Source: Novosphingobium sp. IK01 (lineage in GTDB: Bacteria; Pseudomonadota; Alphaproteobacteria; Sphingomonadales; Sphingomonadaceae). Taken from it: a stretch of 64,000 nt of DNA. Positions 12,844 through 33,714 of this stretch are shown piece after piece. The DNA lies in contig NZ_BTFW01000001.1 of the NCBI RefSeq assembly GCF_033242265.1, forward strand, positions 3,431,001 through 3,495,000, written 5' to 3'. Each line of letters opens with the position of its first letter. Position 1 is the stretch's first letter. The notes under the pieces were generated by a model. It saw only the letters and a program-made list of their open reading frames with translations, was not told the DNA's origin and did not search any database. Position numbers and translations under genes: made by a program.

Positions 12844-12888
12844 GCGCCAGCGCAAGATGCGCGTCGCGGTGGTCGTGCCGGCTTGCGC
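12844..12888 (+). pseudogene. 45-bp relic of phage integrase gene
   Basis: This short stretch matches the integrase fragment at 33309-33353 at about 41 of 45 positions (shared GTCGCGGTGGTCGTGCCGG). It sits exactly where the polysaccharide operon ends and phage sequence begins, and probably marks the left edge of the decayed prophage. Confidence 0.5.
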
Positions 12889-12892
12889 TTGC

Positions 12893-13270
12893 TCATTCGA
12901 TAATCTCCATCGTGCCCCTGGGCTTTTCCTTGCCGTCGAGCGGTTCGTTCATGAGGATGTGCATGGTTGCCCAAGCGAGGTCGGCATGGCCGTCGTTGCC
13001 GCCGCGCCCGGCCTTGAAGGTCACGTTGCGGCCGCTGGTGGTCAGAGTCTTCTTGATCGAGACGAAGGCCGAGACGATGTCGAGATAGGTGCAGGTGTAG
13101 CGGGCGAGGACCGCCCTCGCGCAGCGGGGCCGCGCGACTTCGGGGTTGAAGTCGGTCCACTCGACCAGGCTTTCGCAACCGCAGGCGATCAGGTCGTTGA
13201 ACTTGAACGCGGACAGGCTGTCGTCGACGAACTCGCACATGTAGAGGTTCGCAAACTCGTCAGCGGGGCA
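12893..13270 (-). pseudogene. P2-like terminase large subunit (gpP), C-terminal fragment
   Basis: About 125 residues of the C-terminus of a P2 gpP-like packaging ATPase/nuclease remain: ADEFANLYMCEFVDD, then ARYTCTYLDIV and the family's typical end GHADLAWATMHILMNEPL...TMEIIE. Homology continues upstream of the internal ATG at 13240 and stops near 13270, where sequence of another gene begins on the opposite strand. The ATPase part is missing, so the fragment cannot package DNA. Confidence 0.75.
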
Positions 13271-13475
13271 ACCTGTTCTCGTCGGTCTGCGAGACCGTGG
13301 TGGAGCTTGACGCCGCGCTCGATGGACCGGCGCTGGCCGAGGCCACGAAGTCCGGCTTTCTGGCCGCCTTCACCGCGCTGTTAAAGGCGGACAATGGCAG
13401 CGACGGGGTGGTGCCACCCGTTGAACCGACCCCCGCGCCCGTCAACGCCCTGCTCACCGCCGCCGCGCTCTGGCC

Positions 13476-13670
13476 GTCGCGATTCTGGTCAAGGGCATGG
13501 AGCAGGGGGCCTTCACCGGGCTCGCCCTGGCCGACTGCATCACCGGCACGGGCACCCACGCCCAGTTCGTGAAGGCCCGCAGGATCATCAACGGCACCGA
13601 CCGGGCCGAGGATATCGCCACCCATGCCGACACAATCGCGGCGGCGCTGGGTGAGGGGGGCTGGGCCTGA
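13476..13670 (+). pseudogene. Phage endolysin-like C-terminal remnant
   Basis: A frame ending at 13670 encodes MEQGAFTGLALADCITG and FVKARRIINGTDRAEDIA, which resembles the C-terminal part of phage chitinase- or muramidase-like endolysins. No start or N-terminal catalytic part is in frame. Immediately upstream (about 13280-13475) a different frame encodes VELDAALDGPALAEATKSGF, of unknown identity. It lies where P2-like phages carry lysis genes, just before gene R. Confidence 0.5.
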
Positions 13671-13822
13671 TGCCCGGCGTCCCAACTCTCGCCCTCGCCA
13701 GCGCGCTGGCCGCCAGCCTCACCGCGCTCTACGACATCGCCGGCCAGATCCGCGCAACTCTTGTTGAGCTGCAAGTCGAACTGCGCCTGACACAGGAACC
13801 CGCCCATGCGCAAAGCCGATAG
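13670..13822 (+). CDS. Small phage lysis-region protein
   Basis: This 50-residue frame starts in a TGATG overlap with the endolysin relic and overlaps gene R by 17 bp. It begins MPGVPTLALASALAASLTAL and continues into a likely amphipathic helix (GQIRATLVELQVELRL). Its position between lysozyme and R corresponds to the small lysis genes of P2-like phages, but no family is recognised. Confidence 0.45.
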   Translation: MPGVPTLALASALAASLTALYDIAGQIRATLVELQVELRLTQEPAHAQSR

Positions 13823-14303
13823 CCTGCGCCGCTGGCTCACCGCCTTCCTGCCCGACTTGCGCAAGGAGGCCGACCGCCTTCAGGTCTATCTCGAAGGCGG
13901 CCGGATCAGCGCGCGGCGGTCGGCCACGCTGTCCTTCGCCTATGCCTACACGGTCAAGGCGCTCATCACCGACTTCTCAGGGAATCCCGACACGGTCATG
14001 GTGGCGACGCTCGCATGGATCGAGAAGGAGCAGCCCCAGTTGCTCCAGACCGCAGACAACACGCCCTTCCAGTTCGAGGCCGAACTGCTCGACAGCGACA
14101 CCTATGATCTCCAGCTGTCGATCGAGCTGACCGAACCGGTCCTCGTCCTCCCCCGCGCGGACGGTTCGGGCTTCGACATCGAGCACCCGCCCGAACCGAC
14201 GCTCCCGCCGATGTTCACGCAGGGCACGGCCACGTTCCTGCAAGGCTTCGGCAATGCCGACAAGCTCGTGCAGTCCCCCACGCTCGGATCGCCGGAAGCA
14301 TGA
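13806..14303 (+). CDS. P2-like tail completion protein R
   Basis: This 165-residue protein resembles P2 gpR: the N-terminal MRKADSLRRWLTAFLPDL, a conserved YAYTVKALITDF segment and LVLPRADGSGFDIEHPPEP near the end. gpR helps finish the phage tail before head joining. The gene is full length and overlaps the S gene by 4 bp, as in intact P2-like phages, although the surrounding prophage is broken. Confidence 0.82.
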   Translation: MRKADSLRRWLTAFLPDLRKEADRLQVYLEGGRISARRSATLSFAYAYTVKALITDFSGNPDTVMVATLAWIEKEQPQLLQTADNTPFQFEAELLDSDTYDLQLSIELTEPVLVLPRADGSGFDIEHPPEPTLPPMFTQGTATFLQGFGNADKLVQSPTLGSPEA

Positions 14304-14974
14304 CCGGCGACGATCTGGCCGAAATCGAGCGTCTGGCCGGCGCCCTGCTGCGCAACTTGTCTGCGGGCCAGCGCCGCAAGCTCCTGCGCAAGATGGCCCG
14401 TGACCTCGCCGCCAGCCAGCGCCAGCGCATCGCCGCCCAGCACCAGCCCGACGGCAGCGCCTTCGCGCCGCGCAAGCAAAAGGCGCAGCCGGTAACGGGC
14501 CGGGGCGCCGCCTGCTTCCTCTATCCCGCCGGCGGCAGCGGCCCGCCGCGCCGGGTGATCATGAAAAGCTTCACATGGGGCAGGGGCCGCGCGATGACCG
14601 GCTTCGACATCGAGGCCGGCGGCATCCGCACCTTCGAGTTCGCCAAAGTGGTTCAATGGCTCCCGGTCCCGCCCGAATACCGCAACCGCACCAGTGGCCG
14701 CCTGCGCCGCCGGGGAAGCCTGCGCCGCAAGGCCATGTTCCGCAAACTCGCCAGCGCCCGCTACCTCAAGGCCCAGGCCGACGACCAGGGCTTCTGGGTG
14801 GGCTTCTCGGGCAAAGTCTCCCAGATCGCCAGCATCCACCAGAACGGCCTGCACGACAAACCCTCCCTGCGCACCAGAGCCATCGAATACCCCCGCCGCG
14901 AACTCCTCGGCACAACACCCTCTGACCGCGAACACCTGCTCGACCTGCTCTATGGGCAACTGGCCGGCGCTTGA
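14300..14974 (+). CDS. P2-like virion morphogenesis / tail completion protein S
   Basis: This 224-residue protein is of the phage virion morphogenesis family (P2 gpS). It has an N-terminal helical part (LRKMARDLAASQRQRIAAQ), DGSAFAPRK, and a C-terminal part with FWVGFSGKVSQIASIHQNGL and an arginine-rich end. ATGA overlap with R supports joint translation. The next P2 genes (V, W) do not follow; an IS element begins 54 bp downstream. Confidence 0.8.
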   Translation: MTGDDLAEIERLAGALLRNLSAGQRRKLLRKMARDLAASQRQRIAAQHQPDGSAFAPRKQKAQPVTGRGAACFLYPAGGSGPPRRVIMKSFTWGRGRAMTGFDIEAGGIRTFEFAKVVQWLPVPPEYRNRTSGRLRRRGSLRRKAMFRKLASARYLKAQADDQGFWVGFSGKVSQIASIHQNGLHDKPSLRTRAIEYPRRELLGTTPSDREHLLDLLYGQLAGA

Positions 14975-15028
14975 TCTCCGGTGATTGACTGCTCATCGGC
15001 TTTGGTGGCGGCTTGTGAAAGTGCCCGA

Positions 15029-16706
15029 AAACACCTCAGACTGTCCGAGAACTCGATGAAGGATTCCCACTTGGTTGGGGGTCCGATATGATCGGGCATG
15101 GGCTACATCGAAGGACATTCGCGCGATCAGATGCTGCTGCTTCCGGCGTCGGTCGATGACTATGTGGCGGCGGACAACCCGGTGCGTTTCATCGCGGCGT
15201 TTGTCGACGATCTTGATCTTGGCGAGTTGGGCTTCGGCCGTTCCAGGCCAAAGGCCACAGGGCGGCCCGGCTATGATCCCGCCGATCTGCTGAAGCTATA
15301 TCTCTACGGCTATCTCAACCGGGTGCGGTCGAGCCGGTGCCTGGCAGCAGAGACAGCGCGGAACCTGGAGGTGATCTGGCTGCTGGGTGGCTTGCGTCCT
15401 GATTTCCGCACGATCGCGGATTTCCGTCGCGCCAACAGGGCATCATTCAAGCCGCTGTTCCGGTCCTTCGTGCTGCTGTGCCGCCGCCTTGACCTGTTCG
15501 GGCGGGAACTGGTGGCGGTGGACGGCACGCGACTCAAGGCAGTGAACAGCCGCAAGCGCAACTTCACCCGCCAGAAGCTGGCCGGGTGGATCAAGCAGGC
15601 CGATGAGCGGGTGGGGGAATACCTGGCGCGCCTTGACCGTGCCGATCACGCCGAAGCCGAGGCGGAAGGTGCCGCCCGCCGCGCAGCGGTGCTAACGGCA
15701 AAGATCGCGCGGATGCGGGAACGGCGCGAACGGCACAGCGCGATGCTGGCCGATCTCGTCGCCAGCGGCGAAAGCCAGATGTCGCTCACCGATCCCGATG
15801 CGCGCGGCATGGCGACCCAACCCAAGGTCGGCGTGGGCTATAACGCACAGGTCGCGGTCGATGCCCGGCACAAGCTGATCGTCGAGCAATATGTGACAAA
15901 CTCGGGCAGCGATCTGGGCTTTCTGGCACAGACGGCCAGCGCCGCGCGCGAGGTGCTGGGCGTCGAGCAGATCGACGCCGTAGCGGACAAGGGCTATTAC
16001 AAGGGAGAGGACATCGCCGCCTGCGAGGATCTCGGCGTCATGGCTTATGTCGCGCGACCACAGCGCGGTCCGGCCATTACCGAGGGATATTTCGCCAAGG
16101 ACGAGTTCCGCTACGATACCCACAGGGATTGCTACATCTGCCCCGGCGACCAGCGTCTCGATCCGTATACTCGCTCCCAGAAGAACGGGCATGTCACGAT
16201 CCGCTATGCCAATATGCGGGCCTGCCGGGACTGCGCGCTCAAACCGCAATGCGCGTCCGGCACGCGGCGGAGCATCGATCGGTGGGAGAATGAGGCTGTG
16301 CTCGAGCGCATGGCGGAAAGGCTCGATGCCCGGCCCGACATTATTGACCGGCGGCGCGAGACCGTCGAGCATCCCTTCGGCACCATCAAGCAGTGGATGA
16401 ACCAGGGCGCATTCCTCATGCGGGGCCTCGCCAACGTCAACGCCGAGTTCAGTCTGACGGCGCTCGCCTACAATCTGCGCAGGGCGATCAACATCCTCGG
16501 GATTCCGGCCCTGCTACGCGCCGTGCAGGCCTGAAAAGGTCGCGCTTCAGCCGTCTCCGGCATAACTCGCGTATAGATGCCGATAAGGTTCATCGAGACC
16601 GTCACCACGCCTTCCGCGCCGAAAAACCAGCGGGCCGCTGCGTGAAGCCCCTCCGCTCGACCGAAACCCGATCAGCCCGTGCGTTTTCGGACGGACTGAC
16701 CTGTTT
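15029..16706 (+). mobile_element. IS1182-family insertion sequence
   Basis: The element is about 1.68 kb and bounded by imperfect 24-bp inverted repeats at 15029-15052 and 16683-16706 (19 of 24 matching; inner part CAGACTGTCCGAGAAC against CAGTCCGTCCGAAAAC). It holds one transposase gene. I could not see a clear target duplication. It lies directly after prophage gene S. Confidence 0.75.
15098..16534 (+). CDS. IS1182-family transposase
   Basis: This 478-residue transposase has an N-terminal DUF772-like domain (GRPGYDPADLLKLYLYGYLNR) and a DDE catalytic core: Asp142 in VAVDGTRLKAV, Asp297 in AVADKGYYKGED and Glu424 in RETVEHPFGTIKQWM. A cysteine cluster (CRDCALKPQC, about 376-385) precedes the last acidic residue, as is usual in this family. 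The frame is intact, so the element may still be active. It would catalyse cut-and-paste movement of the surrounding IS. Confidence 0.93.
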   Translation: MGYIEGHSRDQMLLLPASVDDYVAADNPVRFIAAFVDDLDLGELGFGRSRPKATGRPGYDPADLLKLYLYGYLNRVRSSRCLAAETARNLEVIWLLGGLRPDFRTIADFRRANRASFKPLFRSFVLLCRRLDLFGRELVAVDGTRLKAVNSRKRNFTRQKLAGWIKQADERVGEYLARLDRADHAEAEAEGAARRAAVLTAKIARMRERRERHSAMLADLVASGESQMSLTDPDARGMATQPKVGVGYNAQVAVDARHKLIVEQYVTNSGSDLGFLAQTASAAREVLGVEQIDAVADKGYYKGEDIAACEDLGVMAYVARPQRGPAITEGYFAKDEFRYDTHRDCYICPGDQRLDPYTRSQKNGHVTIRYANMRACRDCALKPQCASGTRRSIDRWENEAVLERMAERLDARPDIIDRRRETVEHPFGTIKQWMNQGAFLMRGLANVNAEFSLTALAYNLRRAINILGIPALLRAVQA

Positions 16707-16810
16707 GTCGTACAGAGTTGAAATTACCAATCCTGGACTTTGAAAAGCTCAGTCTCAGGTCCTGAAAGCCCAAGGCTTGCCCCGGTATGCCTTTTCGCTT
16801 CCACTGAGAG

Positions 16811-17716
16811 CTAATATGATGCCTCGATCAACATTTTGAGAAAAGCGCGAACGGCCGGATTGGAACGCCGACTCTCCGGCCAGATTGCGCTCACATTGTG
16901 TCGATCGGCTGCGAAGTCGGCCAGCACGGGCACGAGTGCGCCACGCTCGACCCATGGAGCGACCATGAAGCTGGTGCAGATCCCTATCCCGCCGCCGGCG
17001 ACGATGGTGGCGACGACCGCCTCGCTGGCATCGACGATGATGCCCGATGCGGGCACCAGTTCCACGTCACGACCATGGATGCGGAACGGCCAGCGGAAAC
17101 TCTGCCCCGAGCTTTGATAACGCAGATTGACCGTATCGTGTCCGTCCAGTTCGTCCGGGTGCCGAGGCGTTCCTCGCGAGGCCAAATATGCCGGTGAGGC
17201 GTAACAGCACAGCCGATGCGGCGCGAGCCGCCGTGACAGCAGCCGGGAGTCAGCAAGGTCACCGATACGCACGGCCAGATCTATGCCGTCCTCGATGATG
17301 TCCACGATCTGGTCGCTGAGGCGCAGATCAATGGTAACCTTGGGGTTCTGCGCCCTGAATCGGGGGAGAAGCGGCACAATCAGGTGAAGACCGATCGGCA
17401 ACGACGCGGCGATCCTGAGTATGCCCGATGGTTCTCCCCGTGCCGCCTTGGCGACTTGTTCGATCTCCTCGGCCTCCCGGAGCAATCGCAGCGCCCGTTC
17501 GTGCAGGTCGCGCCCTTCCGCTGTCAGCGCGAGCGAACGCGTGGTGCGCGTAAAAAGCGGAACACCCAAGTCGCGCTCCAGACGTTGCACGCTTTTGCTG
17601 ATCGCCGAAGGCGAGATCGACAGCGCGCGCGCGGCGGCGGTGAAGCTGCCCAGTGATCCAGCACGCGCAAAGGCAATCAGGCCGGTGAGCCGTTCGAGAC
17701 CTATATGTTCCGTCAT
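16811..17716 (-). CDS. LysR-family transcriptional regulator
   Basis: This 301-residue regulator has an N-terminal winged helix-turn-helix ([33 protein letters not shown], about 20-55) followed by a LysR effector domain ([41 protein letters not shown]). It reads away from the oxidoreductase gene at 17803 across an 86-bp gap, the usual arrangement in which a LysR protein controls its divergent neighbour. The block interrupts the prophage between tail genes S and J. Confidence 0.93.
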
Positions 17717-17802
17717 GGCATGAGTGAAGCGACATTTGGCATGATTATCAACCGATATTGCGAATGCCATATGCGCTTCAGAACAAATTTTGCGAGGCCC
17801 AA

Positions 17803-18819
17803 ATGAGCGAGATGATGAAAGCAACACGCCTCCACGCTTTTGGCGGCCCCGAGGTGTTGCGGTACGAAGATACCCCGCGTCCGGTGGCGGCGCCCGGTGA
17901 GGTACTGGTCAAGGTCTATGCCGCCAGCCTCAATCCTCCCGATCTCTATCTGCGTGACGGCTATCGTGCCCTGCCGCCCGAATGGCGCCCCGATGCGGTG
18001 TTCCCTTTGATCCTGGGCACCGACATTTCGGGTGCCGTCGCGGCGGTGGGCGAGGGTGTATCCGGCTTTGCGGTGGGGGACGAAGTCTATTCCATGGTCC
18101 GTTTTCCCGAGGCCATCATGACCGGCAGTGGCGCCTATGCCGAATATGTCATCGTCCCGGCCTCCGAGCTGGCGCTGAAACCTGCTGGCATTGGCCATGT
18201 GGAAGCGGCCGGCGCGCCCATGTCGCTTCTGACGGCCTGGCAATTCCTGATCGATCTGGGTCATGAGGCACCAAACCCGTTCCAGTCCTTCACCCACCAA
18301 CCGGTGCCGTTGGCGGGCAAGACGGTGGTGGTGAATGGCGCCGGCGGCGGTGTCGGCCATTTCGCGGTCCAGCTGGCAAAATGGCAGGGCGCGCGCGTCA
18401 TCGCCGTCGCCTCTGGCCGGCATGAAGCTCTCATGCGCGATCTCGGCGTCGATCAGTTCATCGATTATAATCAAACTGCGGCCGAGAATGTGGTGCGCGA
18501 CGCCGATCTGGTCATCGATGCGGTGGGGGGAACCTCGATCGACCGCTTCCTGCGCAGCATCAGGCGGGGCGGCGCGCTGTTCCTCGTCAACCCGCTTGGT
18601 TTCACCAGCCATGCCGAGGCTGAGGAGCTGGGCATCACGGTGTCGGTCACGCAGGTGCGCTCGAACGGCGCGCAATTGGCACAGGCCGGACGGCTGCTTG
18701 CCGACGGCACTGTGAAAGTGATCGTGGACAGCACCTTTCCGCTCGCCGAGGCTGCCCGCGCGCATGAACGCGCCGCGAAAGGCAACATCCAGGGCAAGAT
18801 CGTCCTCACCGTCGCCTGA
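17803..18819 (+). CDS. NADP-dependent quinone oxidoreductase-like protein (zinc-independent MDR)
   Basis: This 338-residue medium-chain dehydrogenase/reductase has an N-terminal GroES-like domain ([34 protein letters not shown]) and a Rossmann domain with the cofactor loop [25 protein letters not shown]. The structural zinc-binding cysteines of alcohol dehydrogenases are absent, as in quinone oxidoreductases. The ATG at 17803 gives the standard N-terminus. It is divergent from the LysR regulator and 60 bp upstream of the monooxygenase-fold gene. The likely role is reduction of quinones or reactive carbonyls. Confidence 0.9.
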
Positions 18820-18879
18820 CCGGCCGACGCTGCGGCTTCCCGCTCAGAGGAAGCCGCAGCCATTGCGGAGGAAAACATC

Positions 18880-19182
18880 ATGCTGATCGTCACCGGCTAT
18901 ATGCACGTCGAGCCGTCCGAACTGGTGCGCTTCGAAGCCGAACTTCAAGCCCTCATCGCGGTCACGCGGCAGCGCGCCGGCAATCTCTTTTATGATGCGG
19001 TTGTCGCAGACCCCCAGGCCGGTCGTCTGTTGATCGCCGAGCGATGGCGTGATCAGGCCGCGCTGACCGCGCATCTCGAAGCGGCGGAGACAGCAGCGTT
19101 CATCGAACGCTGGCAGCATAGGATGCGTGGCGACATTCGCAAATATGACGCATCGAACGGGCGTGAGTTGATGGCCGATTGA
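18880..19182 (+). CDS. Antibiotic biosynthesis monooxygenase (ABM) domain protein
   Basis: This 100-residue protein has the dimeric ferredoxin-like ABM fold: the MLIVTGYMHVEP strand, central RQRAGNLFYDAVVADP and the typical LLIAERWRDQAALTAHLEA. GCGGAGGA precedes the start. Such proteins oxidise quinone or aromatic substrates without cofactor or degrade haem. Beside a quinone oxidoreductase it may act on the same small aromatic compound, as in the E. coli ygiN/mdaB pairing. Confidence 0.85.
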   Translation: MLIVTGYMHVEPSELVRFEAELQALIAVTRQRAGNLFYDAVVADPQAGRLLIAERWRDQAALTAHLEAAETAAFIERWQHRMRGDIRKYDASNGRELMAD

Positions 19183-19343
19183 TGCAATAACGGCAACATT
19201 GCCCCCTCCCGCCGGGGAGCACCTCATAACACATGTTTGCCGACAGGGCGTCGGCGCTGCGCCTGGGAGTTTTGGCTACCCACGTATTGAGCGGCTCTTT
19301 CAATCCCCATAATGTCCGAAAAACCCTGCCGGATTGGAAAAGT

Positions 19344-19375
19344 GACGGAAACCTTACCGGCTGAGGTTTCCCGTC
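19344..19375. other. Hairpin in the gap before gene J
   Basis: GACGGAAACC and GGTTTCCCGTC form a 10-bp stem with one bulge around an 11-base loop. It lies in the 271-bp gap between the ABM gene and gene J; otherwise I see no gene there. It could terminate minus-strand transcription, since CACTTTTCC follows on that strand, but the T-run is poor. Confidence 0.3.
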
Positions 19376-19453
19376 CCCCCCCGGCCGTCCGGGTATATGG
19401 CCAGCCTGCCATCCCAATGCGGGTCATAGCCTTGGGTCGGTGGTCGCGGCGAG

Positions 19454-20368
19454 ATGGCGGGCATGGCCGATGCTACCTTCACCGCTGTCGATCTCTCGCG
19501 CCTGCCTGCGCCTGACATCATCGAGGCTCTCGACTTCGAGACGGTCCTGGCCGGGGCTGTCGCGCAGATGCGCGACGAGATGGCCAAAAGCGGCCTGAGC
19601 TTCGAGACCCGCGACAGCGATCCGGCCACCAAGCTCCTTCAGGTCTTCGCCTATTACGCCCAGATGCTGCGCCAGCGCATCAACGATGCCGCGCGCGCGG
19701 TCATGCCGGCCTATGCCGTCAAGGCCGACCTAGACCATATCGCCGCCCTGTTCGGCATCACCCGCCTGACCATCACCCCGGCCAACCCCGCCACCGGCGC
19801 GAGCGCCGTGATGGAGGACGACACCGATTTCCGCCGCCGCATGGTCCTCGCGCCCGAGGGCTATTCGGTGGCCGGGCCGGAAGGGGCCTATATCTCCCAC
19901 ACGCTGTCCGCCGATGCGAACGTGCTCGATGCCAGCGCCACCGGCCCGCAGCCCGACGATATCAAGGCCCTCGTGCTGGGCGTTCTGGCCGACCATGCGG
20001 CCCCGGCCGAGCTGATCGACACCGTCGCCGCCTATGTCTCCGACGAGACGCGCCGCCCGCTGACCGACTGGGTCACCGTCCAGTCGGCCCGGATCGTCCC
20101 CTATGCCGTCGATGCCACGCTCACCACGTTCAGCGGCCCCGATGGCGGCGTGGTGCTGGCGGCGGCGCAGGCCAGTCTCGATGCCTATACCAAAGCCAGC
20201 CATCGCCTTGGCCGCGATGTCACCCGCTCGGCGATCTTCGCCGCGCTCAGCGTCGAGGGCGTGCAGAACGTCATCCTGCGCGAGCCGGCGCAGGACATCG
20301 TGATCTCGCGCCAGCAGGCCCCCTATTGCACGGGCATGTCAGTCGCCTATGCCGGGGTAGGGGAGTGA
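19454..20368 (+). CDS. P2-like baseplate assembly protein J
   Basis: This 304-residue protein is a full-length gpJ homologue. It has the family N-terminus FTAVDLSRLPAPDIIEALDFE, the central RQRINDAARAVMPAYAVKADLDHIAALFGI and the C-terminal ARIVPYAVDATLT and TRSAIFAALSVEGVQNV. gpJ forms part of the baseplate wedge. The start may instead be the second ATG at 19463. Its stop overlaps a GTG start of gene I by 3 bases, as in P2-like operons. Confidence 0.88.
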   Translation: MAGMADATFTAVDLSRLPAPDIIEALDFETVLAGAVAQMRDEMAKSGLSFETRDSDPATKLLQVFAYYAQMLRQRINDAARAVMPAYAVKADLDHIAALFGITRLTITPANPATGASAVMEDDTDFRRRMVLAPEGYSVAGPEGAYISHTLSADANVLDASATGPQPDDIKALVLGVLADHAAPAELIDTVAAYVSDETRRPLTDWVTVQSARIVPYAVDATLTTFSGPDGGVVLAAAQASLDAYTKASHRLGRDVTRSAIFAALSVEGVQNVILREPAQDIVISRQQAPYCTGMSVAYAGVGE

Positions 20369-20780
20369 CCGTCCCTTCAATCCTGCCTCCCGGCTCAACG
20401 CCGCTGGAAAAGGCGCTCGAACAGGTCGCCGCGCGGCTGCTCGATGTCGAGGTGGCGATCCGCGAATGGTGGCAGAGTGAGCCGAGGGGCCTGCCACATA
20501 CCTTCAGCCTGGGCCGAGTACCGTCAGGCCCTGCGGACCCTCCCCGAAACCATCACCGACTCGGCCAGCATCGTCTGGCCGGTCGCCCCCAGTCCAAAGG
20601 ATCCGCCACACGCGCGAGGTCAATGCGGTGCTGGACGAGGGCGGGGCCTGTGACAAGGCCGCGACCAGGGCGCGTGTCGAGCAGGTTGCCCTTGGCGTCG
20701 CTCACAAGATCGCGCTGGGCGTGATCGCCGAGCCGGCACCCGAACCGGCACCCGAACCGGCAGGCCCCGCTGCTGTGTAA
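20365..20780 (+). pseudogene. Fused remnants of tail protein I and other tail genes
   Basis: The GTG at 20365 starts the first 35 or so residues of gpI (PSILPPGSTPLEKALEQVAARLLDVEVAIREW), then homology stops. In another frame follows AWAEYRQALRTLPETI...WPVAPS, typical of the end of tail-fibre assembly or chaperone proteins. In a third frame (about 20612-20780) comes REVNAVLDEGGACDKAATRARVE and a PEPAPEPAG tail. The pieces appear to be joined by deletion, and no functional product is expected. Confidence 0.6.
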
Positions 20781-20954
20781 GATTGCGGCGGCCCTTCACG
20801 CCGCCCTGTTCCCCCTTTACGGAAGGGGGGCTCGGATGTTCCCGCATCTCGAAACCAGCGAGCCTGCACTCGCACTCTCCGGGCAGCGCGCCTGTCCCTT
20901 CGAGCACCCTTCCGCGTCTCAGGCGCGGAAGGGACATCGTGCAGGATACCCTCC

Positions 20955-21368
20955 ATGTATACCCCTTTTGTTCTCGTTCGCCCCGTTTCTCCCCCGGCCG
21001 GCTACATCGGTGGAAAACGCAATCTTTCCCGCCGCATCTGTGCCATCATCGAGGCCACGCCCCACACCAGCTATGCCGAGCCCTTCGTGGGCATGGGCGG
21101 CATCTTCCTGCGCCGTGCGCGGCGCCCCAGGGCAGAGGCGATCAACGACATTTCCGGCGACGTCGTCACCCTGTTCCGCTGCCTTGCCGAACACTATCCC
21201 TACCTGATCGACATGCTGCGCTTCCGCGTGGCAAGCCGGGCCGAGTTCGAGCGCCTGCTCGCCCAGCCTCCCGAACGCCTGACCGACCTGCAACGCGCGG
21301 TGCGCTTCCTCTACGTCCAGCGCCTGGCCCCGCGCGCGCTTGGGAGCGGGCGCGCGGGGGTCAATTAG
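20955..21368 (+). pseudogene. DNA adenine methyltransferase (D12/Dam class), N-terminal fragment
   Basis: The 137-residue frame starts like a D12-class N6-adenine methylase, with the SAM-binding motif YIGGKRNLSRRI and YAEPFVGMGGIFLRR followed by EAINDISGDVVTLFRCL. It stops just after the conserved FLYVQRLA region. The DPPY catalytic motif that lies further on in this class is absent, so the fragment should be inactive. Orphan Dam genes are common cargo in P2-like phages. Confidence 0.8.
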
Positions 21369-21379
21369 GTGAGGGGGCG

Positions 21380-26000: not shown

Positions 26001-26198
26001 GTGGTGAAGTTTTCCATCAACGGGATGATCGTTTTGGCCGAAGATGAAGAAGCTGGCCCGCTCAAGGCGCGCGATGCCGATGCCGTTGATCCGTTCAAAT
26101 ATATCAATTCGTCGGCCACCGGCCTCAAACGGCTGAAAGCCCGCCAGATCCGCATCGATCCGCTGGGCCGGGTGTTCGACCCCGGCCCGCGCGAGTGA
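23013..26198 (+). CDS. cas9: CRISPR-associated endonuclease Cas9, type II-C
   Basis: This 1061-residue protein is within the compact II-C size range. RuvC-I is at the N-terminus (Asp7 in LGLDIGSNSIGW), followed by the arginine-rich bridge helix (RRLARGMRRRRDRYVRRR, about 50-67). RuvC-II has Glu508 in IVVELAREL. The HNH domain has Asp593, His594 and Asn617 (DIDHIIPYSRSLDD...HRACNRDKGN). RuvC-III has His745 and Asp748 (HHAIDAAVMAV). All catalytic residues are present. A CPYC pair (Cys571/Cys574) sits just before HNH. GGGGGA precedes the ATG. With crRNA and the divergent tracrRNA it should cut invading DNA; the PAM cannot be read here. Confidence 0.97.
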   Translation: MHRLGLDIGSNSIGWCLIEDDTHIVALGSRIFSDGRDPKSGASLAVDRRLARGMRRRRDRYVRRRSAFLETLVDLGLMPVDADEARLVAMRDPYALRARALDESLLPHEIGRVLFHLNQRRGFKSNRKAERGQKDSESGLIETGARALDAAMAEAGARTLGEFLAGRLGEGKAARVRLNGEAQAYDFYPQRAHIEAEFGAIWAAQAPHHPALLTDAARDRLARILFFQRPLKEPKVGLCLFAGKNGVPLDEARLAKAHPLFQERRLYEEVNQLAITEPGEPAQPLTRDQRDRLVLLLQDKREQTFEQLARALKLQPGQSFNKASAARTKLTGNEVRAVMKDKKRFGDDWLHLSTERQWDIVQRVQDEEDPAALQAFLTGECGLSEERAQAVAKAPLPQGHGRIGKTATSAILEHLKAEVIPYSRAVELAGWHHSDERTGEELPKLPYYGELLSREIPPGTFADKDAANPEVYWGKITNPTVHIGLRQLEKVINAVIAVHGRPDEIVVELARELNLSEEEKKKHQQRIKRDTEEAQRRGRMLETAGIPDSGSNRAKLKLWEELAEKPQDRFCPYCGIGGPIAIHALFSDAVDIDHIIPYSRSLDDSAGNKVVVHRACNRDKGNKTPFERWGHDAQRWDKIAAQVAKLPRAKQWRFGPDAMTRFEQDGGFIARQLTDTQYLSRMAGKYLRSLYPDKGEGSQAVYVATGRMTALLRRVWGLNSLLPDHNYVSNPHSNAPKNRLDHRHHAIDAAVMAVTTPRLLKQIADAAARAEAQDLDRLFADLRQPWSGFREELGEKVNAVTVSHKADHGRKHPPAPGKDSTAARLHNDTAYGLTGEVAPDGKTPIVVHRVPLLSLKPADIASATRIPDPALRQALADATRGKAGKDFEATLRRLAQTHPVFRGLRRVRVREPLSVIAIRDKAGRAYKAYKGDANARFDVWRLPDGKWVSDIVSMFAAHQPGSSDRRPHPAARKVLSLRQNDMLAIERDGIPAQIVRVVKFSINGMIVLAEDEEAGPLKARDADAVDPFKYINSSATGLKRLKARQIRIDPLGRVFDPGPRE

Positions 26199-26211
26199 GG
26201 AGGGAAGGGGT

Positions 26212-27138
26212 ATGGACCGCATCGTCGATATCGCCACCGATGGCCGCCACTTGTCGCTGCATCGCGGTTTTCTGGTCGTCAGTCAGGATCGCGAGGAAGT
26301 GGGGCGGATCGCGCTCGATGATGTCCATGCCGTGCTGCTCCATGCCCATGGCACCACCTGGAGTGCCAACCTGATCGCCGCGCTGGCCGAACGCGGCGCA
26401 CCCGTGGTGCATTGCGGGGCCAATCACGCCCCCGTCGCCATAACACTGCCGCTGGTCGGCCATCATGCGCAGAACGCACGATTTCGCGCGCAATGGGGCG
26501 CCTCGGCTCCCTTGACCAAGCAGTTGTGGCGGCAACTGGTTTCGGCCAAGATCGGCATGCAGGGCGCGGTGCTGGCCTGGCGCGAGGTGGCCGGTGCAGA
26601 AGCCTTTCCGCTGATGGCCCGTCGCGTGAAATCGGGCGACAGCGACAATCTGGAGGCGCAAGCCGCGCGTCGCTATTGGCCGCTGCTGATGGGCGCCGAT
26701 TTCCGGCGAGACCGCGACAGCCCCGGCGCCAATGCTCTGCTCAACTATGGCTATGCCGTGCTGCGGGCCAGCGTGGCGCGGGCGGTAGTGGCCGCAGGCC
26801 TGCATCCCACCATCGGCATTGCCCATGCCAATCGCGGCAACCCTTTGGCTCTGGCCGACGATCTGATCGAACCGTTCCGTCCGCTGGTCGATGCCCTGGT
26901 GGTAACGCTGGTTGCCGATGGCGTTGCGGAACTCACCCCGCCAATCAAGCGCCGCTTTGCCCGCCTGATCGCGTTCGATCTGGATTTCGAGGGCGAAGCC
27001 TCACCCGTCTCGCTGGCCGCCGTGCGCCTGGCGCAATCGTTGGCCCGTGCGTTTGAAACCGGGCGCCCGGCCTTGCGCCTGTTCGCTCCGCCCACGCCGC
27101 TCGAATGGGCGGCGCTGGTGGCAGTGGGCGCGGATTGA
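26212..27138 (+). CDS. cas1: CRISPR adaptation endonuclease Cas1
   Basis: This 308-residue type II Cas1 has the metal-binding triad visible as Glu148 (DSDNLEAQAARRYW), His205 (IGIAHANRGNPLALADD) and Glu220 (LIEPFRPLVD). It lies 13 bp behind cas9 and 15 bp ahead of cas2, so the three genes form one operon. With Cas2 it integrates new spacers into the array. There is no csn2 or cas4, which fits subtype II-C. Confidence 0.97.
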   Translation: MDRIVDIATDGRHLSLHRGFLVVSQDREEVGRIALDDVHAVLLHAHGTTWSANLIAALAERGAPVVHCGANHAPVAITLPLVGHHAQNARFRAQWGASAPLTKQLWRQLVSAKIGMQGAVLAWREVAGAEAFPLMARRVKSGDSDNLEAQAARRYWPLLMGADFRRDRDSPGANALLNYGYAVLRASVARAVVAAGLHPTIGIAHANRGNPLALADDLIEPFRPLVDALVVTLVADGVAELTPPIKRRFARLIAFDLDFEGEASPVSLAAVRLAQSLARAFETGRPALRLFAPPTPLEWAALVAVGAD

Positions 27139-27153
27139 AGGTGAGGACTGACC

Positions 27154-27495
27154 ATGGCCAAAACCCCTTATCTGAGCGGATACCGGCTGATGTGGATCTT
27201 TGTGATGTTCGACTTGCCCGTGGGCACGAAAAAGGAAATGCGCGAAGCAACCCGGTTTCGCCAGTTCCTGCTCGACCAGGGTTTTGAAATGAGCCAGTTC
27301 TCGGTCTATGCCCGCTTTTGCAACGGCAAGGACAGCTTCGATTCGCATCTTGCCCGCATCGAGCGCAATCTGCCGGAAAAAGGCGACATTCATGTCCTTA
27401 CCTTCACCGACCGGCAGTATGAGGGCATCGTCCGCTTTTCCAGCCAGCGCCGCCAGAAGCCGCGCAAAAATCCCGACCAACTTGCCCTGTTCTGA
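27154..27495 (+). CDS. cas2: CRISPR adaptation protein Cas2
   Basis: This 113-residue protein has the ferredoxin-like Cas2 core: MWIFVMFDLPVGTKKE with the conserved Asp20, then FRQFLLDQGFEMSQFSVYAR and VHVLTFTDRQYEGI-type strands. It bridges Cas1 dimers in the adaptation complex. It is the last cas gene; its stop codon lies in an inverted repeat leading to the array. Confidence 0.96.
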   Translation: MAKTPYLSGYRLMWIFVMFDLPVGTKKEMREATRFRQFLLDQGFEMSQFSVYARFCNGKDSFDSHLARIERNLPEKGDIHVLTFTDRQYEGIVRFSSQRRQKPRKNPDQLALF

Positions 27496-27570
27496 CTTTG
27501 TCTGCCGTAAAAGTCAGGCCGGATGGCGCATTCTTCACTTTCATATCAAGTGCTTGATGCGCCATCCGGC
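27492..27570. repeat. Two inverted repeats between cas2 and the array
   Basis: CTGACTTT/AAAGTCAG (27492-27499 and 27510-27517) is followed at once by a perfect 14-bp inverted repeat GCCGGATGGCGCAT/ATGCGCCATCCGGC (27518-27531 and 27557-27570). The right arm overlaps the first three bases of CRISPR repeat 1. A short palindrome CAAGTGCTTG lies in the loop. They may stop transcripts from cas2 and, on the other strand, from the array, or mark the integration end. Confidence 0.7.
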
Positions 27571-30500
27571 TTAGCAGTTCAGAGATCGCGGGCCAACTGC
27601 AACCGCGCCCAGCACATGTAGCTGTAGACGCAGGGCTTAGCAGTTCAGAGATCGCGGGCCAACTGCAACCGCTCGATCTCGTAGGCGTTGCGGCCGAGGG
27701 GCTTAGCAGTTCAGAGATCGCGGGCCAACTGCAACTTGCGCAGGTGTTGCAGCCGCCGGACCAGCGGCTTAGCAGTTCAGAGATCGCGGGCCAACTGCAA
27801 CCAGAGTGCCACGTTACCCCGCCCGAAGTAGGGCTTAGCAGTTCAGAGATCGCGGGCCAACTGCAACCGAAGCGGTCGCTGGCCTCGTGGCGCCATGGGC
27901 TTAGCAGTTCAGAGATCGCGGGCCAACTGCAACCTCAAGCTGCCGTCAGCGGGCGCGCCATTGGGCTTAGCAGTTCAGAGATCGCGGGCCAACTGCAACC
28001 GCACAGGCTGTGACAATTTGCGCTTGCGTGGCTTAGCAGTTCAGAGATCGCGGGCCAACTGCAACAAGGGATCACCGATAGCCGGAACCCGGCGAGGCTT
28101 AGCAGTTCAGAGATCGCGGGCCAACTGCAACGCCTTTATGGTCGGGGTTTTTGCTTGTGGGGGCTTAGCAGTTCAGAGATCGCGGGCCAACTGCAACGTG
28201 ATGGCCGCATTGCATTCGTTGTTATTGGGCTTAGCAGTTCAGAGATCGCGGGCCAACTGCAACACCGTGCCGTCTGGCGTGCCCGTAGGAGTAGGCTTAG
28301 CAGTTCAGAGATCGCGGGCCAACTGCAACCGATCACCAATATCATGCGCGGCGACGGCGGCTTAGCAGTTCAGAGATCGCGGGCCAACTGCAACGGAATG
28401 TCGCCGATGCCATCGCCGTTGCTGGGCTTAGCAGTTCAGAGATCGCGGGCCAACTGCAACGAGGAAACCATCCAGGCGGATGCCGCCGCTGGCTTAGCAG
28501 TTCAGAGATCGCGGGCCAACTGCAACACGTTCTACAAGCCGCAAGAGTGGTTCGTTGGCTTAGCAGTTCAGAGATCGCGGGCCAACTGCAACTTTCAGCA
28601 AGGGGCATTCCCTTGCGCTCGAGGCTTAGCAGTTCAGAGATCGCGGGCCAACTGCAACCACGTTCGCAAACGCTGCCACCTGCCGTACGGCTTAGCAGTT
28701 CAGAGATCGCGGGCCAACTGCAACGGAGTAGGAAGGTGATCGAATCTGCATCCTGGCTTAGCAGTTCAGAGATCGCGGGCCAACTGCAACTCCGGGCAGG
28801 TGAGGTTGAAACCCACGGTAGGCTTAGCAGTTCAGAGATCGCGGGCCAACTGCAACTCAGGGGATACCATCAAGGACGGGAACACGGCTTAGCAGTTCAG
28901 AGATCGCGGGCCAACTGCAACGCTAGTGGAGGCCCTGACAGTGAAGCCGGGGGCTTAGCAGTTCAGAGATCGCGGGCCAACTGCAACGCTCGCGGTCACT
29001 GATCAGCGTTCGGCGAGGGCTTAGCAGTTCAGAGATCGCGGGCCAACTGCAACACCTGCGCCATCTGGTCGTTGTAGATGCTTGGCTTAGCAGTTCAGAG
29101 ATCGCGGGCCAACTGCAACCAAGATCGCCTCAGCGTGTTTGGTGAGGTCGGCTTAGCAGTTCAGAGATCGCGGGCCAACTGCAACGCAGTGAATCGGCGG
29201 AAGTGGCCCAGAAGGGCTTAGCAGTTCAGAGATCGCGGGCCAACTGCAACTCACCTTCACCGATACCGCGCTGGCCAGCAAGGCTTAGCAGTTCAGAGAT
29301 CGCGGGCCAACTGCAACAACCGCGCTCGAGGGGCCCACCAGCGCCAGGGCTTAGCAGTTCAGAGATCGCGGGCCAACTGCAACTACCAAGCGATCCGATC
29401 GGAATCGGAAATGGCTTAGCAGTTCAGAGATCGCGGGCCAACTGCAACCGCGAAGAAGATGATCAGAAGCGCGCCCGCGGCTTAGCAGTTCAGAGATCGC
29501 GGGCCAACTGCAACCCGACCACGACGGGCAGCGTGACGACCACCGGCTTAGCAGTTCAGAGATCGCGGGCCAACTGCAACGTCTCGGGGAGTTGTTCGTC
29601 GATACGAATCGGCTTAGCAGTTCAGAGATCGCGGGCCAACTGCAACTTGTCTAAGGTGAGGCAGGCGGCGCCTCTAGGCTTAGCAGTTCAGAGATCGCGG
29701 GCCAACTGCAACCGATCCACGATGGCCTATCGCGTTTGGGATGGCTTAGCAGTTCAGAGATCGCGGGCCAACTGCAACAAACGGTCCGATCTGCCATGGA
29801 GCATAGGTGGCTTAGCAGTTCAGAGATCGCGGGCCAACTGCAACCGATACGTGACCGGCGATGCAGTGTCGTTTGGCTTAGCAGTTCAGAGATCGCGGGC
29901 CAACTGCAACTAATGCGAGCGGATGCCAGCCACATCTCAAGGCTTAGCAGTTCAGAGATCGCGGGCCAACTGCAACAGCGTCAGGGAGCCGGTCGGCATC
30001 CCGATGGGCTTAGCAGTTCAGAGATCGCGGGCCAACTGCAACGGCGTCTGGGTCTTGTTGATGAAGCCCGCGGGCTTAGCAGTTCAGAGATCGCGGGCCA
30101 ACTGCAACTCCGGCTGGCTCAAGGCGAACGGCTCGACGGGCTTAGCAGTTCAGAGATCGCGGGCCAACTGCAACGCCCCGCGCTCTGCTATGGCCTCTCT
30201 TGGTGGCTTAGCAGTTCAGAGATCGCGGGCCAACTGCAACTACGAAGGGAGGGTTTAGGAACTTGTGCCAGGCTTAGCAGTTCAGAGATCGCGGGCTAAC
30301 TGCAACATACGCAGGCGCTCACCACGCTGACCGCAGGGCTTAGCAGTTCAGAGATCGCGGGCCAACTGCAACACATCCGGCCACCTCCTCGACGCGGACG
30401 GGGGCTTAGCAGTTCAGAGATCGCGGGCCAACTGCAACAGAGCCAAGCCGTTGACCAGCTCGCCAGCCGGCTTAGCAGTTCAGAGATCGCGGGCCAACTG

Positions 30501-31009
30501 CAACATGTACATGATCGACTACGGTCTTTCATGGGGCTTAGCAGTTCAGAGATCGCGGGCCAACTGCAACCGCAGCTTGCCGCCGGTTTCTGCGAACAGA
30601 GGCTTAGCAGTTCAGAGATCGCGGGCCAACTGCAACCGCAGCTTGCCGCCGGTTTCTGCGAACAGAGGCTTAGCAGTTCAGAGATCGCGGGCCAACTGCA
30701 ACTGCAAAACGTCGTGGTATTGGATGCCCATTGGCTTAGCAGTTCAGAGATCGCGGGCCAACTGCAACCCTCCTCGAACTGCTGCTGGAGCTGTTCTGGG
30801 CTTAGCAGTTCAGAGATCGCGGGCCAACTGCAACCCGCAAGGCTGGGCAGGCCTTTGCCGCTGGGGCTTAGCAGTTCAGAGATCGCGGGCCAACTGCAAC
30901 CTGTTCGAGCGATGACACTGCGCTCGCGAAGGCTTAGCAGTTCAGAGATCGCGGGCCAACTGCAACATCGTTCTTTTCCTTTTCCAGAATTGCGCGGCTT
31001 AGCAGTTCA
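27568..31009 (-). CRISPR. Type II-C CRISPR array, 52 full repeats plus one truncated
   Basis: A 36-bp repeat (first copy 27568-27603, starting GGCTTAGCAG and ending CCAACTGCAAC on the plus strand) recurs every 66 bp with 52 spacers, mostly of 30 bp (range 29-31). The copy at 30271 has one C-to-T change. The 53rd copy (30996-31009) keeps only 14 bases. Two consecutive spacers (30571-30600 and 30637-30666) are identical. Minus strand is assigned because the repeat then starts GTTGCAG, as type II repeats do, and pairs with the minus-strand tracrRNA. Some spacers read as open codons, e.g. TFYKPQEWFV at 28527, as expected for phage genes. Confidence 0.98.
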
Positions 31010-31126
31010 TATTGGCCCGTTCGGAAACTCGGTTGCCCTTATCCGGGGCAGGGGCATGCTAATGAGGCACTTGGCCTGCCAGCCAACCCGATACACCCCC
31101 GCGTAAGCTGAGCGATCCCGCGCCAT

Positions 31127-31276
31127 GGTCTGGCCCTGGCGGCCACTTCCGATCCTGAACACCTTACCGGCGATGTCCTGCGCCTTGGCGTGGTGGCAGC
31201 TGTTGATCCGGGCGGGGCGACCTACATGGTGGAGAGCGGGGGCGTGGTCATCGGGCCTTTGCCTTGGGCGCCGTGA
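31127..31276 (+). pseudogene. P2-like baseplate protein V fragment
   Basis: About 49 residues resemble the N-terminal part of gpV (GDVLRLGVVAAVDPGGATYMVESGG, VIGPLPW), ending at a stop at 31276. Neither the true start nor the rest of V is present. It is the first phage sequence to the right of the CRISPR array. Confidence 0.6.
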
Positions 31277-32318
31277 CTATGGTTCGCTGGTGCCCGAGCA
31301 GATCGACCAGCCCATGACGCCCGCCAATATCCTGCGCCTCTATGCCGCCACCGCTGTCGCGCTCACCCGCTGGGAGGATCGCCCGCGCCTGGTCTCGCTG
31401 GCCATCTCGGAAAAGCGCGGGGACGAGGCCGACCAGCTCGACATCGTGCTCGACGATGCCGATGGCCTGCTGGCGATCCCGCCCGAGGGCGCGCGCCTGC
31501 TGGTCATGCTGGGGTGGAAACAGGGGCGCGACGTGGCCCCCGGCCTCGTCCACAAGGGCAGCTTCAAGGTCGACGAGGTGAACCACAGCGGCCCGCCCGA
31601 CCAGATCCGCATCCGCGCGCGGGCCGCCGATTTTACCAGCGCGATCCGCAACCGCCGCGAACAGAGCTGGGCGAACACCACGCTGGGCACCGTCTTGCAG
31701 GACATCGCCGGGCGCAATGCCCTGTCCTTGCGCATCGCGCCCGATCTGGCCGCCATCGCCTTGCCCGCGCTCCACCAGAGCCGCGAGAGCGACACCGCCT
31801 TCCTGCGCCGCCTCGGCCGCGAGAACGACGCTGTCGCCACCATCAAGACCGGCACCCTGATCTTCGCGCGCAAGGGCGCGGGCACCACCAGCACGGGCCA
31901 GCCCCTGCCAACCCTCGCGCTCACCCGCCGCAGCGGCGATGGCCATTCATGGCAGCGCCAGACGCGCGACGGGCAGGCCGGTGTCACCGCCCACTGGCAC
32001 GACCGCAAGGCCGCCCGCCACCGCGCCGTCACCATGGGCAAGGCCGAAGGCGCAAAAACCCTGCGCAAGACCTACCCCGACGAAGCCAGCGCCCGCCGCG
32101 CCGCCACCGCCGAACACACCCGCCTCAAACGCGCCCCCGCCACCCTCGACATGCGCCTCGCCCTGGGCCGCCCCGACGCCATCCCCGAAGCCCGCGTCAC
32201 CCTCACCGGCTTCAAGCCCGAAATCGACACCACCCCATGGCTGATCACCGAAGTAACCCACCGCCTCGACAACGCGGGCGGATTCATCACCGAGTTGAAG
32301 ATGGAAACGGCGGGGTAG
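31260..32318 (+). pseudogene. Chimera of baseplate W fragment and late control protein D
   Basis: One open frame joins a piece of gpW (RRDYGSLVPEQIDQPMTPAN, LRLYAATAVALTRWEDR) directly to almost all of P2 gpD (PRLVSLAISEKRGDEADQLD through HRLDNAGGFITELKM). In intact P2 phages W and D lie far apart, so a deletion fused them near 31380. An internal ATG at 31315 could still start a D-like product lacking its native N-terminus. gpD is the tail hub and an inhibitor of Ogr-type activators. Confidence 0.75.
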
Positions 32319-32342
32319 GGGGAGACGAGCCAATTTGGGTGG

Positions 32343-32882
32343 TTAGCGGACTTTGCGCATAAGCATCATGTGTTGGGTCATGAACCTCATTTTGGGATAT
32401 GTCGTTAGGCCCAGGAGAAAGGCTTTGTCTGGCGCGGTGACGAACCATTCGGTGGAAGTCATTGGTAGGCCTTCCATCAAAGTCACTTTATCCGGCCTGC
32501 GCTCAACTATCCCGCCGATCTCCAAGGCGAAATTAGCCAACTGATGGTCATATGCCTCGCGCGTAGCGCGTTCATTGGCCTTAACTAGTTCGAATGTGCA
32601 GTTGCCATTGGTCCATATATGGGCAAGACCTCGCAGATCGGAGCGCGATGATTGGACATCCCAAAACGGACCTTCCTCGGTGGGGCGAATTTTCTTGAGG
32701 ACATCAGGTCCAAGCTTTGTAAATTTGAATGCGGAAGGGTCAAATGGCGTTTCAACTGCGGCGACGGTGCCACCGCACAGGTTGAAGAACACTGCCACAC
32801 CATCTTCCTCCGTACTGGCCTGGGCAAAAGCAGGGCTCATCGCCAGCACACACGCGAAAATCATCAAATGATTTCTGATCAT
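32343..32882 (-). CDS. Secreted protein of unknown function
   Basis: This 179-residue protein has a clear signal peptide (MIFACVLAMSPAFAQA). The mature part has two cysteines (LCGGTVAAVE and GNCTFELVKANERATREAY) that could pair. Family not recognised. It reads opposite to the chimeric D gene, 24 bp from its stop, and could be a host gene exposed by prophage decay or a phage-carried extra gene. Its base composition is visibly lower in GC than its neighbours, suggesting foreign origin. Confidence 0.65.
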   Translation of the reverse strand: MIRNHLMIFACVLAMSPAFAQASTEEDGVAVFFNLCGGTVAAVETPFDPSAFKFTKLGPDVLKKIRPTEEGPFWDVQSSRSDLRGLAHIWTNGNCTFELVKANERATREAYDHQLANFALEIGGIVERRPDKVTLMEGLPMTSTEWFVTAPDKAFLLGLTTYPKMRFMTQHMMLMRKVR

Positions 32883-33133
32883 TTGGATTTTTTGACACGC
32901 TTGGCCAATCCCCGCAACAGCGGTCGTGTCCGGAAGAGCGCTTAATCGTCGAAATGAACCGCACCGGCTTTCCCGGAGGCATTTTCAATTGAGTCATGCA
33001 ACCATATCGAGGGTCTCTCTGGCTGCATAGTAGTTTGCCTCTGCACTGCTACCCAACCTTGGGCCGCTCGGGTCTAGAGTTTTCCGCCTGACCCGGGTCC
33101 GGAGGGCTGGTGGTTCTGGTCGATCTTGCGGCG

Positions 33134-33265
33134 ATGTATGCCGCCGAGCAGGCGGAACTTGCCCGCCGGACGGAGTTTTTCGTCCTGCGCTCGTTGCTCG
33201 CCCTCGCGGGCATTCTGGCGGTGCTGTGCCTCGTCGCCCAGTGCGCGCGGTGGATGGGTCTGTGA
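33134..33265 (+). CDS. Small single-pass membrane protein
   Basis: A 43-residue frame starting MYAAEQAELARRTEFF has one strong hydrophobic helix (LRSLLALAGILAVLCLVAQ). It lies between the secreted protein and the integrase relic. It may be a phage accessory protein, but no family is recognised and no good ribosome site is seen. Confidence 0.4.
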   Translation: MYAAEQAELARRTEFFVLRSLLALAGILAVLCLVAQCARWMGL

Positions 33266-33267
33266 CC

Positions 33268-33714
33268 ATGCTCGAGCCTCTCGAAGACGCGGGCGCGGCC
33301 ATCCGCCTGCGCCAGCGCAAGACGAGCGTCGCGGTGGTCGTGCCGGTTGGCGCGCCGCTCAAGGCCGCGCTGGACGCGGCAAAGGCGCGCGCTACGCAGG
33401 CCGGCATGCCGCTTTCGCCGACCATTCTGGCAACCGAGCGCGGGACGGCGTGGACGGAATCGGGTTTTCGCGCTTCGTGGCGCAAGGCCTGCATCCGGTC
33501 AGGTGTCAGCGGGGTGACGTTCCACGACCTGCGCGGCACCGCCGTAACGCGTCTGGCGCTGGCAGGGGCTACGGTTCCAGAGATCGCGGCGATCACCGGT
33601 CACAGCCTGAAGAAAGTCGGGACGATCCTCGATGCGCATTACATGCATCGCGATCCGGCGCTGGGTGAAGCGGCCATCCGAAAGCTGGAGGGAAGGGTGG
33701 TTTTTCCCAACTAA
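33268..33714 (+). pseudogene. Phage tyrosine recombinase, C-terminal fragment
   Basis: The 148-residue fragment holds the second half of an integrase catalytic domain: HDLRGTAVTRLALAG (His and Arg), the ITGHSLKKV histidine and the tyrosine in LDAHYMHRD. The N-terminal binding domains and the first catalytic arginine are missing. It ends 57 bp from the 3' end of tRNA-Met, the expected place for a P2-type integrase beside its attachment site. A 45-bp relic of the same gene lies at 12844. Confidence 0.8.

Follow-up and report, generated by a model that had tools for sequence, protein, structure and literature searches.

A predicted type II-C CRISPR-Cas9 locus inside the remnant of a P2-like prophage at tRNA-Met in Novosphingobium sp. 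IK01

A stretch of 64,000 nucleotides from Novosphingobium sp. IK01 (hereafter the window; bases 3,431,001-3,495,000 of a 3.53-Mb contig, in a genome of 3.77 Mb) carries a clustered regularly interspaced short palindromic repeats (CRISPR)-Cas9 locus of predicted type II-C, situated inside a broken P2-like prophage beside a tRNA-Met gene. The cas block spans window positions 21364-31066, comprises a candidate trans-activating CRISPR RNA (tracrRNA), cas9, cas1, cas2 and an array of 52 repeats, and looks intact. An earlier examination of the window by eye, referred to below as the original prediction, had described a complete II-C locus in such a prophage; PADLOC matches for the cas genes, the array itself, Pfam matches for the phage gp genes and three collinear sibling prophages elsewhere in the genome bear this description out. 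From the sequence, the best reading is that the locus was phage cargo, and that the host kept it for immunity during the decay of the prophage. We put the probability at roughly 0.64 that a P2-like phage at tRNA-Met carried the complete locus in a slot between its DNA methylase gene and gpV, and that the phage body then decayed while the immunity stayed.

According to this reading, a temperate P2-like phage of Novosphingobium would integrate at tRNA-Met, bringing the complete II-C locus with it in the methylase-gpV slot. The array would record competing temperate phages, a P2-like competitor among them, and Cas9 would exclude the phages so recorded. After lysogeny, repeated internal deletions would erode the phage body and leave the immune locus intact. 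The locus would thus have arrived with the phage, would be expressed and would cut its targets, and would have been preserved by selection for immunity. The arrangement suggests that such phages can deliver adaptive immunity that is used against rival phages.

The prophage remnant and its cargo slot

The phage pieces of the window were compared with three sibling prophages of the same genome, located at about 293-331, 634-674 and 753-789 kb of the contig. They are 82-100% identical to the siblings, most of them 91-98%, which is well beyond chance. The left remnant aligns with the 5' half of the siblings and the right remnant with the 3' half. Against the third sibling, fourteen pieces are collinear from 12867 to 32305, separated by eleven internal deletions and by two large gaps that correspond to cargo slots; a fifteenth row of 43 bases, lying wholly inside its neighbours, was excluded from the count. 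The remnant is therefore not scrambled, as its pieces keep the order of the sibling prophage. At all eleven deletions the aligned ends overlap by 4-20 bases (upper bounds), and the deletions look as if they had occurred between short direct repeats. Further P2-like genes were noticed at 678-746 kb of the same genome.

Pfam matches were obtained for gpR, gpS, gpJ, gpD and the integrase C-terminus, in agreement with the gene names first proposed; the gpW match is weak and below the Pfam cut-off, the gpV piece was identified through the gpV of a sibling, and gpI, like some sibling genes, is named by position. The tail genes gpR, gpS, gpJ and gpD in P2-like order, together with an integrase adjoining a tRNA attachment gene, point to a P2-like element. 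The proposal that 12844-33714 is a single prophage segment holds for the phage flanks, but the interval between gpS and gpJ (variable slot A, Table 1) is a second variable slot and not phage body.

The integrase relic lies next to tRNA-Met, as had been predicted (Table 1). Its C-terminus is 78-82% identical to integrases adjacent to tRNA-Met in three other genomes (G062, G020 and G057). G062 and G020, neither of which is a Cas9-positive genome, have a gpD of the same phage family 10 and 7 kb away, respectively; in G057 the gpD is on a different contig from the integrase. As the homology covers the integrase and the tRNA and not the chromosome beyond, it indicates the same kind of tRNA gene, and not necessarily the same chromosomal place. 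Att-like repeats were detected for two of the siblings, one of 19 bp at tRNA-Arg for sibling 1 (E 5e-5) and a weaker one of 14 bp at tRNA-Ser for sibling 3 (E 0.05). At the left edge of the remnant, the junction with the chromosome includes a 45-bp fragment of the integrase gene, a scar possibly left by a tandem lysogen; this junction is also present in contig C30 of the conspecific genome G046 (98% complete, 250 contigs).

The cas block occupies the stretch between the methylase gene and gpV, the size of which differs among members of the phage family. This slot is 86 bp in G041, G161 and five IMG/VR contigs, and reaches 1.9 kb in the 27 IMG/VR stretches in which it was measurable, out of 80 examined (the best 80 of 157 matches, with up to 10 kb on each side of gpD). 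G062 has a slot of 3.3 kb, and those of the three siblings measure about 1.2, 5.9 and 6.5 kb. In the window, phage homology restarts at 31067, a few bases from where the siblings and G046 start agreeing, so the cas block ends on the right where the slot does, to within a few bases. A PADLOC search with ten proteins from the slots and their surroundings gave no match for five and the methylase for one; the remaining four matched a PifA-like ATPase (G062), an ImmA/CapP-like peptidase (G029), an NYN nuclease, weakly (G096), and a HEC-05 defence gene, the last of these from a second slot of sibling 3.

It is very improbable that the neighbourhood arose by chance, through unrelated insertions at a tRNA hot spot. 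A different integrase-like gene, judged from sequence, lies at the same tRNA-Met in G046 (L099 8459-8979, contig C194), and an unrelated Cas9 locus with 38% identity (G156:C1:2825240-2827052) has its array end about 0.2 kb from a tRNA-Met; both would suit such a hot spot. However, both flanks are collinear with one prophage map and the cas block meets the slot edge. The idea that the phage fragments are separate, unrelated insertions, raised as a possible refutation of the original prediction, is contradicted by the collinearity with the siblings and was rejected.

Spacer targets

All 52 spacers were searched against 194 genomes of the genus, and exact phage targets were found for two (spacers 5 and 14), both in the conspecific genome G046. 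The target of spacer 5 is a gpU gene (Pfam Phage_P2_GpU) that occurs in a G046 prophage and in two IMG/VR contigs. The phage concerned is distant from the window prophage (gpD 43%, sheath 48%). The prophage matched by spacer 14 has a terminase gene and is unrelated to that matched by spacer 5. Cas9 was not found in the 250 contigs of G046. A Cas9-positive genome and a conspecific in which Cas9 was not found, with two exactly targeted prophages, offer a natural comparison. With Cas9 as cargo and a spacer that matches another P2-like phage exactly, CRISPR-Cas movement and conflict between phages become testable in cultured strains. The 3' flanks of the two exact targets are GCGCGCGC and GCTCATGC; as there are just two such targets, no protospacer adjacent motif (PAM) was called.

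In the genome itself, none of the 52 spacers was convincingly matched (best 26 bases at 92%, E 0.02). The idea that self-targeting caused the prophage to decay was rejected, no spacer convincingly matching the genome or the siblings. GenBank phages gave nothing convincing, and a plasmid search returned other arrays and weak matches such as 29/30 for spacer 13 in a Rhizobium plasmid. Spacer 13 (28395-28424) matches a motif with 1-3 mismatches in many genomes of the genus; the gene is annotated treS in two Rhizobium plasmid records. Spacer 13 was not counted as having a phage target. Spacer 5 also matched family contigs L201 and L203 in part (23/30), a match superseded by the one of 30/30 to gpU.

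Other Cas9 loci and the origin of the window locus

Cas9 was sought in 195 genomes of the genus (E up to 1e-50) and 397 of the family (E up to 1e-100), yielding 12 positive genomes in the genus and 22 further ones in the family, 34 in all. Three of the 34, the window included, have gpD and cas9 on one contig no more than 40 kb apart. Since this feature was the reason for choosing the window, the count free of that bias is 2/33, and as several contigs are short it is a lower bound. Four genomes (G094, G131, G388 and G345) have gpD on another contig than cas9.

One of the two other cases is in N. meiothermophilum (G034 in the genus scan, L034 among the Cas9 relatives below), a member of the same genus. 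Its Cas9 is 62% identical to that of the window. The locus lies within an apparently complete P2-like prophage, between the two exact att copies (24 bp) that bound it, and a P2-like methylase gene is found at a distance of about 0.1 kb. A 24-bp copy of the 3' end of tRNA-Trp lies to the left of cas9, and tRNA-Trp with an integrase lies 41 kb to the right, with no exact copy of at least 11 bases found between the array and the phage genes; outside the left att copy are genes named from sequence as SecE, NusG, RplK and RplA. A cas locus between attL and attR was encountered here; for the window, where the prophage is decayed, a search for the left copy gave none. All eight phage proteins tested matched PHROGs, in the terminase, major head, baseplate, sheath, tail, repressor, primase and integrase families, and the completeness of the prophage presumably extends beyond these eight. 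A tblastx comparison gave nothing informative beyond the tRNA itself.

In N. meiothermophilum, 4 of 30 spacers are within seven mismatches of the phage's own body, compared with 0.05 expected from shuffled spacers; the match to the repressor has 3 mismatches and the others 6-7. Three of the 30 also match 1.41 Mb of non-phage control DNA, so that shuffling understates the background, and scaling from the control gives an expectation of about 0.07 for the phage body of about 35 kb, still far below four. For spacers 1, 3 and 7, three of the four, the mismatches fall mostly toward the presumed PAM side, as would be expected if the spacers had been taken from relatives of the phage. Elsewhere in the genus, this array matches G028, G107 and G070 at 89-94% over 31-36 bases.

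The second case, G226, belongs to another genus and has tRNA-Asn, an integrase, an array, cas2, cas1, cas9 and an open gpD within 11 kb; no further P2-like marker of the set used was found within the 100 kb fetched. A quick tree of Cas9 was made from 95 rows, a duplicate of L034 having been dropped and 7 of 103 candidate rows having been excluded for a stop codon or a length below 850 amino acids (aa). In this tree N. meiothermophilum and G226 fall in one clade of four rows and the window in another, and the separate clades imply that Cas9 was captured at least twice. The three P2-like cases involve three different tRNAs and different parts of the prophage. Together with the absence of cas9, cas1, cas2 and fic from all 80 IMG/VR stretches of the phage family, this indicates sporadic cargo and not a fixed gene, and the expectation that carriage would be seen as a constant place in intact P2-like prophages did not hold.

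The original prediction had left open whether the locus entered an old prophage or was carried by the phage, and carriage is favoured by the right slot edge, by the att-bounded case in N. meiothermophilum and by the linkage in G226. Several observations weigh against it. To the left of the cas block the methylase gene is interrupted, so that this edge is not clean, and the window yielded no left copy of att. In the conspecific G046 the left junction of chromosome and phage is also present (97%) but Cas9 was not found, and the locus may therefore have come in later than the phage. The 80 IMG/VR stretches mentioned above lack the cas genes, and among the best 80 of 544 Cas9 relatives in genome_contigs, with 10 kb fetched around each, one alone (L034) has P2-like markers within 10 kb, leaving 79 without. 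The spacers add that the 397 family genomes (E up to 1e-5) gave matches to other arrays and no further exact target, and that of two distinct spacers scanned against IMG/VR, 5 (as a 20-base core) and 46, the latter had no exact match. Within seven mismatches, 7 of 51 window spacers (one duplicate dropped) match in 1.75 Mb of P2-like DNA and 4 of 51 in the 1.41-Mb control, and for G226 the figures are 2/19 and 1/19; no convincing P2-like enrichment is seen in either set beyond the exact match.

The junction shared with G046, the cut methylase gene and the 79 relatives without P2-like markers nearby would suit a later entry of the cas locus into a resident prophage, by host recombination or slot exchange, in which case it was never in a virion of this phage. 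We consider this unlikely, given that on the right the block stops at the slot edge of the phage family and that Cas9 is linked to P2-like genes in two other cases, of which one is bounded by att copies. It is quite improbable that the cas locus is instead a separate integrative element inserted into the prophage. The sister of the window Cas9 in the tree is an Erythrobacter Cas9 (L017) whose locus has a MobA relaxase on one side and an integrase on the other, and the window locus would be an element of that kind; however, the genes tested in 21364-31066 are Fic, cas9, cas1 and cas2, and no integrase or relaxase was seen there, although not every overlapping open reading frame (ORF) was searched. 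The Erythrobacter locus also has a stand-alone NusG-like gene just upstream of cas9 (L017:9070-9609), between the relaxase and the integrase.

A wider proposal can be put forward tentatively, at somewhat less than even odds: sphingomonad P2-like phages may repeatedly acquire II-C systems and spread them by lysogeny, to be used against rival and often P2-like phages, with the immunity outliving the prophage. Because the immune system would stay when the prophage dies, phages would then be a route by which adaptive immunity reaches bacteria. Ten Cas9 loci in IMG/VR contigs had none of the P2-like markers, and an IMG/VR scan with the N. meiothermophilum Cas9 returned no relative. A 'phage' flag on L020 was disregarded, as it came solely from a split Fic match.

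The cas locus, known systems and remaining features

The window Cas9 gave a PADLOC match and Pfam HNH_4 and RuvC_III matches, and RuvC and HNH motifs were located in it. Neither csn2 nor cas4 is present, the interval from cas9 to the array being too tight for any gene beyond cas1 and cas2. A Cas9 with nuclease domains, cas1 and cas2 alone, a tracrRNA candidate with an anti-repeat and spacers against foreign DNA together place the locus in type II-C. The tracrRNA candidate, encoded on the minus strand ahead of cas9, pairs with the repeat as read on that strand, with a predicted co-folding energy of -73 kcal/mol that includes the candidate's own hairpins; the array is accordingly drawn as probably transcribed toward cas2. 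Its 52 repeats of 36 nt extend over 27568-30966, followed by the truncated repeat, with spacers mostly of 30 nt. Identical copies make up 51 of the 52, and the repeat at 30271 has one substitution. Spacers 46 (30571-30600) and 47 (30637-30666) are identical to each other. The inverted repeat before the array might, as a guess, be a leader or a terminator. A Fic gene that has lost its N-terminus, apparently by frameshift, is located between the methylase remnant and the tracrRNA candidate.

Table 1. Features of the window, in window coordinates
Feature	Position	Strand	Remarks
Integrase-gene fragment	12844-12888	+	45 bp, 91% identical to 33309-33353; chromosome on its left
Left prophage remnant	12867-14974	+	Six early-region pieces, then complete gpR and gpS
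gpR	13806-14303	+	Pfam match, complete
gpS	14300-14974	+	Pfam match, complete
Variable slot A (gpS to gpJ)	14975-19363		Not in sibling prophages
Insertion sequence transposase in slot A	15098-16534		Profile match
LysR gene in slot A	16811-17827	-	Named from sequence alone
Oxidoreductase gene in slot A	17758-18819		Named from sequence alone
gpJ, gpI and short downstream pieces	19364-20608	+	gpJ 304 aa, shortened; gpI named by position
Methylase region	20600-21329	+	5' part of prophage DNA methylase gene; left flank of cas block
Fic gene	21529-22625	+	Open part 21696-22625; apparent frameshift near N-terminus
tracrRNA candidate	22810-22905	-	Anti-repeat, short nexus-like hairpin, terminator-like hairpin; ends approximate
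cas9	23013-26198	+	1061 aa; PADLOC Cas9, Pfam HNH_4 and RuvC_III
cas1	26212-27138	+	PADLOC, Cas1_II match
cas2	27154-27495	+	PADLOC, Cas2_II match
Inverted repeat	27518-27570		Between cas2 and array
CRISPR array	27568-31010	- (probable CRISPR RNA strand)	52 repeats and one truncated repeat
Spacer 5	27868-27897	-	30/30 to gpU of P2-like prophage
Spacer 14	28461-28490	-	30/30 beside portal gene of second G046 prophage
Right prophage remnant	31067-32353	+	gpV piece, gpW C-terminus fused to gpD; begins at slot edge
Integrase C-terminus	33226-33714	+	Pfam match; 57 bp from tRNA-Met
tRNA-Met	33772-33848	-	Probable attachment gene of prophage

Phage-encoded CRISPR-Cas is exemplified by ICP1, and surveys of virus-encoded CRISPR-Cas may include type II loci. 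P2-like phages serve as a model for phage-borne defence hotspots. Those of E. coli were reported to have short systems only and no CRISPR-Cas (Rousset et al. 2022, PMC9122126), and a full Cas9 cargo contrasts with that description. The window slot resembles the E. coli P2 hotspot as a small cargo locus that varies, flanked by two conserved genes and with defence genes that differ from copy to copy, but it lies between methylase and gpV and hence is not the gpA-gpQ hotspot, holds a whole Cas9 system and belongs to another host clade (PMC9122126). Some phages encode fully functional CRISPR-Cas, according to the accessible text of a 2024 review (PMC11656645), which describes a phage Cas9 whose RuvC domain is inactivated, prophage systems of types IV and V-M, and mini-arrays; that text describes no temperate P2-like phage with a complete, nuclease-competent II-C locus. 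The window shares with these the location of the system on a phage, and differs in the complete II-C locus and the P2-like prophage.

A Campylobacter integrative conjugative element carries a Cas9 aimed at competing elements (PMC8743540, as far as its available text goes), and so likewise has Cas9 as the cargo of an integrative element against competitors; that element is conjugative and targets plasmids, whereas here a phage would target phages. In Streptococcus pyogenes, prophage DNA lies beside the CRISPR locus as it does in the window, but there, in the part of the account available (Varble et al.), the phage enters the CRISPR locus, whereas here the phage contains the cas locus and integrates at a tRNA gene. 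The available parts of PMC4741004 and PMC9071438 contain nothing on Cas9 in a prophage, and among the open-access titles and abstracts listed in the literature searches none reported Cas9 in a P2-like prophage.

Between gpD and the integrase remnant, on the minus strand, there is also an ORF of 179 aa (32343-32882) without a Pfam match.

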